Below, one piece after another: positions 14,201-20,200 of a stretch of DNA of 64,000 bases; position 1 is the first letter of the stretch, and every line of letters starts with the position of its first letter. The stretch lies in assembly GCF_027579695.1 (NCBI RefSeq), contig NC_083577.1, positions 32,950,698 through 33,014,697 of the forward strand, written 5' to 3'. Source of the DNA: Neoarius graeffei. Taxonomy: Eukaryota; Chordata; Actinopteri; Siluriformes; Ariidae. Under the pieces are notes generated by a model. That model was given only the letters and a program-made list of their open reading frames with translations, did no database searches and was not told the DNA's origin. A program made the position numbers and the translations under genes.

Positions 14201-17200
14201 TACATCGTAGTTTTGCTAGTTTTACAATTATTTTATGGAATTTTTCAGTTTTTAAATAAGCATGCCTCATTGTGTAGCATATAAATGCCACAATGATGCT
14301 AAAAAGAAAGCACAAGGTGGAACTAGACTGCATTTCTGCAGAGAAAATGCAAAGTGTGTTTGCTCAGCTGTAGCAGAGGCTCACTGACAGAAACTGGATT
14401 AGACATGAGACTTTGCATTTTCTCTGTGAAAGTGCAGTCTAGTTCCAGCCTGTGCTTTCTTTTTAGCATAATTGTGGCATTTATATGCTACACAATGAGG
14501 CATGCTTATTTAAAAACTGATAAATTCGGCAAAATATTTGTAAAACTATCAAAACTACGATGTAAACAGAGAATATAAACAGCCGAGTTGCTTCAAGCGA
14601 CCGCAACGTGACGTCATCGCATACGTCACCACCGCAGGAAGCCATGAATTTTATAGAAAATTCATTTTTCTTGAAGACTATTTGGTCGGCGGCATGGTGG
14701 TGTAGTGGTTAGCGCTGTCGCCTCACAGCAAGAAGGTCCTGGGTTCGAGCCCCGGGGCCGGCGAGGGCCTTTCTGTGTGGAGTTTGCACGTTCTCCCCGT
14801 GTCCGCGTGGGTTTCCTCCGGGTGCTCCGGTTTCCCCCACAGTCCAAAGACATGCAGGTTAGGTTAACTGGTGACTCTAAATTGAGCGTAGGTGTGAATG
14901 AGAGTGTGAATGGTTGTCTGTGTCTATGTGTCAGCCCTGTGATGACCTGGCGACTTGTCCAGGGTGTACCCCGCCTTTCGCCCGTAGTCAGCTGGGATAG
15001 GCTCCAGCTTGCCTGCGACCCTGTAGAAGGATAAAGTGGCTAGAGATAATGAGATGAGACTATTTGGTCTCTGAAAATGAAAGTTTGATTTTTGAAATCT
15101 GCAACTACTTTTACTTAAAATAAGTTTGAGAATAAATCCGCTGGAGGATCCCTTTAAATGATAATGAGCCAGTGCTCACCCCAACCCTCTCTTTTGCCAG
15201 CCAATCAGGTAGCACTTTCCTCATGAATATTCATTCACAAATGCGGTTCTCAAACCATGAGTGGAGATACTCAGATGACAGGGATGCATAATTCTAATGT
15301 ACTCCATTTATGACACAGAAAGAGGAGCCAAATCCGAACACCTTGCTGAAGCACACCTTTTCTGAACCAGGCAGCCCAAAAGAAACTGACTGGGTTGTTT
15401 TATTTCAGAGTTTATGGGTTCGTAGGCACTCCAGATTCCCAAATGTATGTTTTTCATATGTCCCCTTTAAGCATGGATCGTGAAGAGTCCAAACTGAAAT
15501 GCATTGTTATTCACACCGCAGGTGTAACTATAGACGTAACTATTATTTTGAAGTTGTGCATGCAGGGTGGCTCCAGAAACAGAGACATGTGGCAGTTGTA
15601 GTTAGTTCTGACGTCGCATGATATAGGCTCAACTGAGGTCTCATCTCATCTCATTATCTCTAGCCGCTTTATCCTGTTCTACAGGGTCGCAGGCAAGCTG
15701 GAGCCTATCCCAGCTGACTACGGGCAAAAGGCGGGGTACACCCTGGACAAGTCGCCAGGTCATCACAGGGCTGACACATAGACACAGACAACCATTCACA
15801 CTCACATTCACACCTACGGTCAATTTAGAGTCACCAGTTAACCTAACCTGCATAGGTGCAGTATTAAATTCAGCACCACTGTCTTGACATTTTGACGTAA
15901 CCACAATATGTTGTGATGAAACTTTAGGTTTTGGGCTGTACCTATACTTAAAACAAGGAATTAAACCCAATATTAATTACATATATATGGCACTATTAAT
16001 TAAGAAGTATTACACTCCCTTTTATAGTCAACGGAATTTTTTTTTATTATGTTTTTTTGCATGGGTGACAATGGATGACATCAGAGAATGATTTCGTATA
16101 GAAACCATATTTTGTATAGTTTGAGCAGCAAACTTAAGTGAACTTAACTGATGGATGCTTGGTCAGCTTCCCCCGAAACTATGGCCATGATATCTTTATA
16201 GAATTGTTTTTAATTATTATTATGTCTTTAATTAAGTGTTGCTTTTATGTATTATGTATATTTGGGGGAAAATACTACCTGATTCTTCAGTCCACATTTT
16301 CTATACCCTGGTTTTTTTACAGGCTTAAATTTTTTAAGACTTTATTCATCATATTTACATTAGAACACAGCAAAATTCTTTCTCTGCGTTTATCCCATCT
16401 GGAGACTCGAACAGTTCAGAGGTTAGGTGTTTTGCTCAAGGGTACTTCAGCCATTTTTCCCTGCTGGTCCAGAGAATTGAACCAGCAACCTTTTGGGCCG
16501 AAAGCTGCTTCTCTAACCTTTACCCCATGGCTTCCTCCAGCCTTAACCTTCATCCTACCAAGTGGGGTCCATCTGGACCCCGCACCTATATGTTTGTTTG
16601 CCATTTTAAAAATATGTGACATACTGCTTCACCGTTTTATGAATTTGTCGGAATTTATGTCTTAATTAAAACACTAAAGCACCGGAAGATCAGCTTTTTG
16701 CATTGCAAAGGCATAATTAATTTGTTACTGGGGTCCAACCGGACCCCAGAGTAAAGTTTATCTGTCTTTCATTTTATAATTGAATAGCACACTGAAAGTA
16801 ACTTCTTTTATTTCTTTTATGTTCCATAATGAAACTACCAAGGCATTCCTTCTTGGGGTCTGTGTGGACCCCACTGCTGCAATAAGCACAGGCTGCAAAA
16901 CAAAAGCCCTAAATTATTTTACAATTACTTTTTTGTTTTAAATTCTGTAAGAAAAGACCTAAGTTGTAATCCAGAATGTTTTACAGCTGCATGAGCTGCA
17001 AAAATCATGTATATAATGCCAATTTTTTTTGTGGCGCTATAATTTGCTACATGTATGCTAGTTATTGCAATATTATTGTAATGTTATTGCATTTATAATA
17101 CATCATTGATATTCAGCCATAGTGGATTTTGTTCTTCAATAAAGTTATGTCTGTTTGCTGCATTGAATTGGTTCTTACTGCATTGATTTCAAGGTATTCC

Positions 17201-20200
17201 CTCCTGGGGTCCATACGGACCCCGCCTGGTAGTTTGTGTATGTAAAATTGGTGGTAGGATGAAGGTTAAGTGTGTTCTTTATGCCTTGGGCCCTTTAGTG
17301 TATTGCTGTTATTAATACAAGATGTTCTGAACAAAACTCATCTCATCTCATTATCTCTAGCCGCTTTATCCTTCTACAGGGTCGCAGGCAAGCTGGAGCC
17401 TATCCCAGCTGACTACGGGCGAAAGGCGAGGTACACCCTGGACAAGTCGCCAGGTCATCACAGGGCTGACACATAGACACAGACAACCATTCACACTCAC
17501 ATTCACACCTACGGTCAATTTAGACTCACCAGTTAACCTAACCTGCATGTCTTTGGACTGTGGGGGAAACCGGAGCACCCGGAGGAAACCCACGCGGACA
17601 CGGGGAGAACATGCAAACTCCACACAGAAAGGCCCTCGCCGGCCCCGGGGCTCGAACCCGGACCTTCTTGCTGTGAAGCGACAGCACTAACCACTACACC
17701 ACCATGCCGCCCTGAACAAAACTTATCTGGTGATTTTGTCTTTATAAGCTTTAATTTTAAAGAAAAGTATTAGGGTCCAAACGGACCCCACATGGTAAGA
17801 TTAAGGTGTAAAATAGCATGGTAGGATGAGGGTTAAAGGGCAAGTGCTTGGTGTTTAAAGATGGTGTTCTAGATACTATTGAGAAAAAAAAATCCTACAA
17901 AAACATGCTTCTATTTATTAAGAAACATCTGGCAACCTTTGAGGCGTGAACTTAAGCAGCTGCATGAACAGGCACTGAATATATGTAACTTTCCTCATGT
18001 AAATATTGACATACTTTTTTATGGCCCTTTTTTATGGTACTTTTTTAATGTGTTAAAATGTTCAAAACCTTTTAACACAGTGCAACTGGTTTGTGTTCTG
18101 TAGCTGATAAAGTTCAGGAATAAAAATCCCAAGTTGCTGCAATAAAGAACTACGATGATACAAATTTGCCTGTTGTGACTTATAGTCCGAATAGTCAGAT
18201 TACGGAAACAGTATTGTCCAATGTTACACTGTTGTAGGATTCAGTTCAAATATACAGTATAATAAGCTATATTCATTCATCCACACACTGCATCTGAAGC
18301 AGGACTATGATAATCACACTATTATGAACCATTTACTTACCTAATTACTCTGACCAGTTCATGAAAGGCTTTGTCCACGTTCATTGGCGGATCCTTAGCG
18401 CTTGTCTCAATGTAAGTGATCTGTTTTGTGAATGAAAGATTTAATTTTAAAAAAAAAGACTGCATGCAATTTTCATACACGATGACTCATTCCATCTATA
18501 AATAAGGCAGCTGAAAATAATGGGGCCCTTTTCGATTGGCTCATCACGTAGGCAAACAGGGCCTTAATCACAGCCTGTTTTTAGGGGTGAGTCAACACAG
18601 GAGCCTGCAATTCACCACACACACTAAAATAAGCCTCTGGTTCTGCGTCTGCCAATCCCACTGGTCTTCAGCCTCAGGGAGAAAAGCTCTCCAGATAGCT
18701 CGCTTCTTGTGCTGGTTTCATATTTGCCAAAGAATTGAGACTTCATTTGAACTTGCTCATCATTTTCTAATTAAAGACAGAAGCAGTAGCAGCTGAGCTG
18801 GAGGAGTGTTATAAAGAATGCCAAAGCATTTTAGAGATCCTGCAGTGGGTGAGCTGTGACGTGGATATTTTGGAATTCGAGTCAAAACTACTGATGAGAC
18901 AGATGAATTCTGTATTCTCTATATTTGCTTTTACAGTAAATATCATTCATATTGGAGCATGGGTGCAGATCCCGGGGGGACGGGGGGACGGGGGGGGGGG
19001 GGGGGGGGGGGGGGGACATGCTCCCCCCAATTTCTGAAAAACATGAATTGTCCCCCCCCCAATAAAAATCCCCTAAATTATTCAAAATTGTACAAACAAA
19101 TGTATTTTCAGACTTCACATTCTTCACAATTTAGATAGAAATGGTGGAACAAATAATGTTTGACAAATATATTTCTGACTCTGCATTCCATCTCTGCATG
19201 GTATGAGTTGCATACGGGCAAAAAAAAAAATCACTTTTGTGTCCCCCCCAATCCTGACATCAGATCTGCACCCCTGTATTGGAGTGTCCAGATAAAGAGG
19301 CAGAGAGTCTACACCTACTTAGATCAAAAGGTGCAGGCTATCTACTGGTACCTCATATAGTGAAGGCTACATCAGGGGACAGAGCCTTTTCTTGCAAAGC
19401 CCCACAGTTATGGAACAGCCTTCCAAGTAGTGTTCGGAAATCAGACACAGTCTCAGCGTTTAAGTCTAGGCTGAAAACATATCTATTTAGTCAAGCCTTT
19501 TGTTAATAGTGTTTATGAGGTAAAGGTGTAGATCTGGAGGGTCCTCAGGCATAGAGTGTTTTGGTAAACTGGGATGTATGGATGCTGTCAGTCCCCCACT
19601 CACTTGTTCACTCGAGTTTGTTGACAGTGTAATGGCTGGCTGCTTTATGTCCCGGGGCTTCCTCATGACTGTGTTACCTTCTGGCTTTCCCCTTTTAGTT
19701 ATGCTGTCATAGTTAGTTTTGCCGGAGTTCTGCTTGCACTCAGTGCAAAATGTATACTGTACCTACTTATTCAGGTGACATTGGGCATACCTAACAACCT
19801 GTGTTCCCCCCCCCCCCCCCCCCCCCCCCCGTCTGTCCCTCTGAGGTACATGTCAATCCTGAGATCAAGGTGCTGACCTCTTCTGCTCCTCGGACCTGCC
19901 TGATCCATCCTGGTGCCCTATGTCTGGTTGGAGTCTCATCACATCGCTCCTGTAGAGGACGGCTCCATATGGACAGTCAAAAGTCACACTTGGAGGACGC
20001 TCTGGACACTTACAATAATGCTTTTATGGCTGAGGACTACAGTTGACTTGCTAACTTTAGGACTACAGTTGTCATGAACAGTTTTGCATTCAAGTTTCCA
20101 TCAATTGAAGAGTTTATAACTTCAACGAAACTGACTTCATGTTAAAACTGTTAATGTTATAATCATGTCTGTTGTCGCCCAAATGAGGATGGTTTCCCTT

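Follow-up and report, generated by a model that had tools for sequence, protein, structure and literature searches.

Palindromic dyads in a composite TTAA-bounded element of Neoarius graeffei are probable transposase-binding sites of a piggyBac-type transposon

Members of the piggyBac superfamily are recognized by ends that begin with CC[C/T]T and by the target TTAA (PMC2872659). In piggyBac itself, from Trichoplusia ni, 19 bp subterminal repeats lie 3 bp and 31 bp inside the terminal repeats (PMC2533014); a palindrome within bp 17–33 of the left end is bound by a dimer of the cysteine-rich domain (CRD) of the transposase, and bp 34–63 of the right end nearly repeat bp 7–35 of the left end (PMC7351741). 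The left end of piggyBat from Myotis is built from units of a core-domain motif, 3 bp and a palindrome, with activity held in check by an additional inner site (PMC11707139). In PGBD3 an imperfect 16 bp palindrome lies 3 bp inside the 5′ repeat, recurs 59 bp before the open reading frame (ORF) and has a third occurrence beyond the ORF, at a distance of 114 bp from the 3′ repeat; electrophoretic mobility shift assay and chromatin immunoprecipitation sequencing demonstrated binding, and perfect palindromes occur in 291 of 363 bound MER85 elements versus 48 of 526 unbound ones (PMC3459987). Here we describe a TTAA-bounded element that is present twice in a 64,000-nucleotide stretch of the Neoarius graeffei genome (NC_083577.1, positions 32,950,698–33,014,697; the whole stretch is called the window) and that contains five dyads of the form GGGGTCC-N4-GGACCCC. 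These dyads are very probably transposase-binding palindromes, the subterminal 'internal repeats' of a piggyBac-superfamily transposon.

The element and its parts are given below with the coordinates of copy A first and those of copy B in brackets; L226, L204 and L205 are relatives elsewhere in the genome.

16543..17836, + strand: copy A of a composite non-autonomous element, probably of piggyBac type, from TTAA to TTAA
30667..31577, + strand: copy B, the same element with different flanks and without the short interspersed nuclear element (SINE)
16543..16560 (30667–30684), + strand: left TTAA and 14 bp terminal inverted repeat (TIR), from the terminal-repeat search
17252..17269 (31378–31395), − strand: inner right terminal repeat with TTAA, from the same search
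17266..17836 (31392–31577), + strand: outer right-end segment, attributed to an L226-type origin, in copy A including the SINE-like insertion
17819..17836 (31560–31577), − strand: outer right terminal repeat with TTAA, from the same search
17339..17711, no strand: SINE-like insertion, present in copy A and absent from copy B, with a 12 bp target duplication CTGAACAAAACT at 17327–17338 and 17712–17723
16564..16581 (30688–30705), no strand: dyad 1, bp 18–35 from the left end, spacer ATCT, predicted transposase CRD-dimer site
16730..16747 (30854–30871, one substitution), no strand: dyad 2, bp 184–201, spacer AACC, inner left-side site
16855..16872 (30979–30996), no strand: dyad 3, bp 309–326, spacer GTGT, one substitution in both window copies
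17206..17223 (31331–31348), no strand: dyad 4, inner right end, spacer ATAC, equivalent to the right-end dyad of L204 and L205
17772..17789 (31513–31530, exact), no strand: dyad 5, outer right end, spacer AAAC, one substitution in copy A, equivalent to the right-end dyad of L226

Exact matches to the dyad number six in the window (mean 0.00 in 100 shuffles). When up to three mismatches are allowed there are 13 versus 0.90 expected, consisting of the ten element sites and three elsewhere with two or three mismatches. In each copy three of the five dyads are exact and two carry one substitution (six and four of the ten sites, respectively): in copy A 16855 reads GGGGTCT-GTGT-GGACCCC and 17772 reads AGGGTCC-AAAC-GGACCCC, while in copy B 30854 ends in AGACCCC and 30979 has GGGGTCT. 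The positions, spacer length and spacer letters given in the initial annotation are correct, and the same five dyads are found at their counterpart places in the copy at 30667, but the description of the dyads as identical does not hold. The substitutions are minority variants among 43 aligned copies, in which the consensus of all five dyads is a perfect GGGGTCC-N4-GGACCCC with the spacers ATCT, AACC, GTGT, ATAC and AAAC, in keeping with the fixed arms and differing spacers first noticed. Half-site pairs within the element (at most one mismatch each, spacers of 0–20 allowed) are all spaced by exactly four bases, as had also been proposed, and the same scan yields three pairs outside the element in the window, with spacers of 9, 14 and 14. 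TTAA is present at both ends of both copies, and the DNA between the dyads is AT-rich as described, the G+C content of copy B outside the dyads being 0.32. Two features had been overlooked, namely the third terminal repeat inside the element and the insertion in copy A, which is later than the element itself. Copies A and B have different flanks and differ by nine substitutions in 909 aligned positions and by two indels, and are therefore separate insertions.

The terminal repeats and the dyads are arranged as in piggyBac-type ends. Each copy contains the sequence TTAACC[C/T]TCATCCTACCA at three places (left, inner right and outer right), and the 14 bp repeat CC[C/T]TCATCCTACCA within it fits the 12–19 bp length and the CC[C/T]T start of terminal repeats in the superfamily, as the TTAA target duplication does in both window copies. 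Counted from the TTAA, the dyads occupy bp 18–35 at the left end, bp 43/44–60/61 at the inner right end and bp 44–61 at the outer right end, which leaves gaps to the repeat of 3 bp on the left and 28–29 bp on the right, compared with the published 3 and 31 bp. Three bases before both right dyads there is a partial second repeat core (a YTACCA-N3 TIR-like motif) that matches at 10 of 13 positions in the outer end and at 9 of 13 in the inner end, with shuffle P values of 5e-5 and 0.003 in register and of 0.003 and 0.05 in any register. In copy B the two right ends, inner and outer, are alike in 17 of 18 bp of the repeat and 17 of 18 bp of the dyad, and in 16 of 29 bp of the DNA between them.

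As in piggyBac (PDB entries 6x67 and 6x68), a TTAA target and short repeats starting with CC are thus combined with a palindrome 3 bp inside the left end and about 30 bp inside the right end, and the left end is partly repeated within the right end (PMC7351741). The arms of the piggyBac palindrome, TGCGT as printed in PMC3459987, differ in their letters from those found here, and the extra inner dyads and the non-coding composite of the window are further points of difference. The order of repeat motif, 3 bp and palindrome is also that of the piggyBat left end, although the palindromes of piggyBat are imperfect and restricted to the left end and its zinc domain has another fold (PMC11707139). 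Human PGBD3 and MER85 resemble the present family in that the palindrome is repeated, with the dyads of L226 in comparable places, and in that derived non-coding elements keep it; their palindrome letters are different, and MER85 is a simple 140 bp deletion product with one palindrome whereas the window element is a nested composite with five dyads (PMC3459987). A Kolobok-type transposon, from another superfamily that also targets TTAA, is an alternative to which we give a negligible chance: Kolobok ends begin with AG/RR (PMC6004289) and those here with CC[C/T]T, and the coding relative L226 belongs to PF13843.

The initial annotation proposed a search for an autonomous relative with the same ends and a transposase, and a coding relative with the same kind of ends, L226, was found. 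A left-end pattern requiring an exact dyad 1 and then no G gave 32 matches, 30 of which were cut out as loci. L202, L204, L205 and L221 were selected by a pattern that demands exact dyad 1 arms, and L226 was found through its protein. L202 and L221 form a different subfamily with dyad 1 spacers GATT and AATT and contain the beginning of a protein frame, which in L202 is 76 codons long. This 76-residue N-terminal piece of L202 has no match in Pfam or the PDB; the L202 protein piece is found at 62 genomic places, two of them with open frames of 663 amino acids, and L226 is the one that was read. L226 is 2,649 bp long, has TTAA at both ends and contains an open 663-residue frame (ORF 527–2515). 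Its dyads lie at bp 18–35 (spacer GTTT), at bp 184–201 (AAAC, one arm mismatch) and 44–61 bp from the right end (AAAC). The protein matches DDE_Tnp_1_7 (PF13843) in Pfam with E = 3.4e-70, with no separate zinc-domain match reported by Pfam, and its nearest solved chain is the piggyBac transposase 6x67 (E = 3.4e-92, residues 128–661), to which the C-terminal zinc domain is aligned; the match to piggyBat 9c0f (E = 8.7e-27) is limited to residues 180–596. The motifs CIDEQL, TADHFF and KSGVDTLD, with the presumed catalytic aspartates, align with 6x67, and so does the Cys/His stretch of the C-terminal cysteine-rich domain. Dyad 1 is in the same place in L202, L204, L205, L221 and L226, dyad 2 is present at bp 183–211 in four of these five (L205, L202, L221 and L226), and the distance from the end of dyad 2 to the first ATG is 69 bp in L226, 77 bp in L202 and 73 bp in L221.

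The piggyBac-type assignment follows from the layout, the coding relative with the same sites and the published structural and binding precedents taken together. These strongly support the earlier suggestion that the dyads serve a dimeric protein, and more precisely that they are internal transposase sites. The statement that no feature type explains them is incorrect, since they correspond to the palindromes found near the ends of piggyBac-superfamily elements. Dyads 1, 4 and 5 are assigned with the greatest confidence and dyad 2 with good confidence, whereas dyad 3 is no more than a candidate.

The dyad arms were compared between the subfamilies represented by the miniature inverted-repeat transposable element (MITE) of the window (copy B), L202 and L226, with 20 shuffles per pair. 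The arms of dyad 1 are alike at 14 of 14 positions in all three pairs, while the N4 spacer agrees at one, two and three of four; here the MITE–L226 pair is the independent test, as L202 had been selected for exact arms. For dyad 2 the arms agree at 12 of 14 (MITE–L202), 14 of 14 (MITE–L226) and 12 of 14 positions (L202–L226). The approximately 145 bp between dyads 1 and 2 have identities of 0.48, 0.45 and 0.55 in the three pairs, whereas the shuffles average 0.48, 0.44 and 0.47 and reach at most 0.57, 0.56 and 0.52, so that similarity is undetectable in two pairs and slightly above the shuffles in the third. Between subfamilies the arms have thus been kept while the intervening DNA has been lost, and this comparison is more informative than one within the family. 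In the copies chosen by position, G/C positions of the young family have changed at 15 of 1495 sites in the arms versus 67 of 5965 elsewhere, and in those chosen by similarity at 3 of 1020 versus 8 of 4063. Arms more conserved than flanks had been predicted across copies, and equal rates had been named as speaking against binding sites; equal rates are what is seen within the young family, where they are the expected decay of inactive, unconstrained copies.

The same counts bear on the possibility that the arms are sites of a host transcription or chromatin factor and are kept by a host protein that has put the element to use. Constant arms with varying spacers and a regular N4 dyad would suit any dimer. 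This explanation is nevertheless improbable, given that the position sample gives no sign of constraint after insertion and that dyad 1 and the right-end dyad hold their distance from the transposon ends in the relatives read, which a host factor would not need. Slightly less probable again is a function as a cruciform or hairpin in place of sequence recognition. Seven of the ten window dyads, folded as single-stranded DNA, form 6–7 bp hairpins of −4.7 to −7.3 kcal/mol, and the right-end dyad of L221, GGGGTCT-AAAC-AGACCCC, has changed in both arms with its symmetry preserved; two equal subunits reading one site would equally account for such a symmetric double change. The five dyads and those of other subfamilies have the same letters, and the arm variants in the 43-copy alignment and the dyad 2 variants of L202 and L226 break the pairing. 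In addition, the zinc domains of piggyBac and piggyBat read duplex DNA by sequence (PMC7351741, PMC11707139). The host-factor and cruciform readings, both of which had been offered in the initial annotation, are left unsupported.

If the dyads are transposase sites, a dimer of the C-terminal cysteine-rich zinc domain would most likely grip both GGGGTCC arms, about one helical turn apart, while the core domain of the transposase would read the adjoining terminal repeat. The left and right ends would be synapsed for excision and for insertion at TTAA, and the window element, which has no transposase of its own, would depend on a relative such as L226 to mobilize it in trans.

Several observations weigh against this interpretation. 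In PGBD3 the final palindrome is separated from the 3′ TIR by 114 bp (PMC3459987), whereas the corresponding gap here is about 29 bp. Dyad 1 of L202, L204, L205 and L221 provides no independent test because of the way in which these loci were selected, whereas that of L226 does. A recognizable dyad 2 was not found in L204, and nothing equivalent to dyad 3 is present in L204, L205 or L226. At the right end, the dyad has one arm mismatch in L202 and two, symmetrically placed, in L221. The complete agreement of dyad 2 between the MITE and L226 includes a private change of copy B that matches L226, and with the family consensus the agreements become 13, 13 and 12 of 14. The equal rates of change in the arms and elsewhere within the young family belong here as well. 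L226, the single full-length coding element that was read, differs from the MITE in its left spacer (GTTT) and in the last base of the left TIR, and for the subfamily from which the MITE took its left end, the transposase is represented by no more than a 213-residue frame in L204. The start of this frame resembles a related protein, and Pfam gives one weak match below its cut-off; the left tip of L204 is CTTT instead of CC[C/T]T. L227 is the same place as L204, and L225 is a disrupted member in which none of the nine listed frames looks transposase-like by eye.

The element is a composite. The last 186 bp of L226 are 99.5% identical to element positions 726–911 (copy B), and this outer segment starts at an internal TTAA of L226, at position 2464 of that element and about 200 bp after its ORF. 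L204 and L205 share element positions 1–267 (86–97%) and 582–729 (99–100%), and the inner right end of the composite is their true end; nothing in the relatives read matches region 267–582, which includes dyad 3. From the identity with L226 over 186 bp and the likeness of the remainder to L204 and L205, we infer most simply that a 729 bp element, reaching from the left end to the inner right end, inserted into the TTAA of an L226-type right end, and that the whole was then amplified, the left end afterwards working with the outer right end.

On one side, 13 of the 16 bp next to dyads 3 and 4 are the same (P = 5e-6 by shuffling, computed on copy B), and because of this dyad 3 may be a copied piece of a right end; the earlier view that the dyads do not stem from an old duplication is to that extent wrong. 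The unit shared by the two, CAAGGYATTCCYTCYT followed by the dyad, occupies 16839–16872 and 17190–17223 of the window. This leads to a reading that is compatible with the transposase interpretation and to which we attach a minor although real probability, namely that only dyads 1 and 5 are functional and that dyads 2–4 are passengers left by internal duplication or end capture. The shared flank is in line with it, as are the absence of dyad 3 from L204, L205 and L226 and the position of dyad 4 in an inner right end that does not serve as the end of any of the 48 scored copies. On the other hand, dyad 2 keeps its place in four of five relatives although the surrounding DNA is barely or not alignable between subfamilies, and in PGBD3 a palindrome at a similar position is bound (PMC3459987).

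An assembly of this kind that moves as a unit has been described in Acropora corals, where CMITE-IN is a TTAA MITE inside another element; there the TTAAs of the outer proto-element are used, whereas here the left end of the inner element is combined with the right end of the outer one (PMC2872659).

In the 2.34 Gb assembly the exact left-end pattern has 660 matches (326 + 334) and the exact junction of inner right end and outer segment has 634 (324 + 310), with none for the reversed-pattern controls. Forty of 3287 genomic candidates were scored, and copy A is one of these. Fifty loci were read, 20 picked by similarity to the whole composite and 30 by position. The right tip is in range at 48 of the 50; in all 48 (28 of them from the position sample) the inner right tip is followed by the junction and TTAA is present at both ends, with 47 distinct left flanks. 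At L139 and L153, two of the 48, the end scored was the inner right tip, the outer tip not being found in range; at L165 and L175 the junction is present farther off, past inserted DNA. The inner right end as the element's own end was found in none of the 48 scored composite copies. The complete inner right end at 17252–17269 and 31378–31395 (repeat, spacer, dyad and TTAA) is unused in these scored composites, yet it serves as the end of L204 and L205. In 12 further regions the element is split by other DNA in nine and whole in three (L186, L191 and L192), the inserts being Tc1-like, SINE-like or unidentified as judged by eye. The alignment comprises 43 of 50 extracted copies, L132, L134, L139, L151, L153, L163 and window copy A having been dropped for length: 17 similarity-chosen, young copies from L131–L150, 25 copies from L151–L180 and window copy B. 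The L151–L180 copies were drawn from the first 30, in order of position, whose left end is exact, and this choice fixes their left repeat and the first arm of dyad 1.

The dyads are in this way accounted for and a coding relative can be named. The kind of system is already known; the palindrome and the composite appear to be a new example, and a search of the literature, which did not extend to repeat libraries such as Repbase, found no description of either among the hits listed. A predicted site is thereby added to the palindromes of piggyBac, piggyBat and PGBD3 with shown transposase binding. Since the element has two complete right ends and only the outer one ends the copies read, end choice of the piggyBac type becomes testable from natural sequences. 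More speculative, and in our view doubtful, is the idea that the family owes its success to being a chimera, in which the left end of one piggyBac subfamily is joined to the right end of another and an inner right end is retained intact but bypassed. The inner dyads would then alter the choice of ends, either by loading additional transposase or by acting as brakes in the manner of piggyBat. If this were true, the 600-odd copies would amount to a natural experiment on how the choice between TTAA ends depends on the number of palindromes and the distances between them.

Elsewhere in the window, a palindrome TGGGTCCGTATCCTACGATACGGACCCC with a further GGACCCC is present at 48699–48740; it was rejected as an element site, its layout being different and no terminal-repeat match lying nearby. 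The near-match to the dyad at 40546 was likewise set aside, as it falls inside a Tc1-like transposase frame. In a scan of viral contigs the left-end pattern occurs in two stretches and the dyad in at least 120, with one site each among the 80 matches listed; by a rough estimate such numbers are near chance. An open frame of 357 residues at 42423–43496, perhaps a TMEM177-like single-exon host gene, has no Pfam match at E 0.01. Pieces of a Gypsy-like retroelement with a SCAN-domain match (PF02023, E = 5.7e-17) occupy 54347–57629. Their integrase frame (55827–56576) lies upstream of the reverse transcriptase frame (56577–57629), an order that we take to recall Gmr1-type elements. Tc1-like transposase remnants are found at 39763–40647, which overlaps the near-match at 40546, at 44881–45255 and at 59896–60624.

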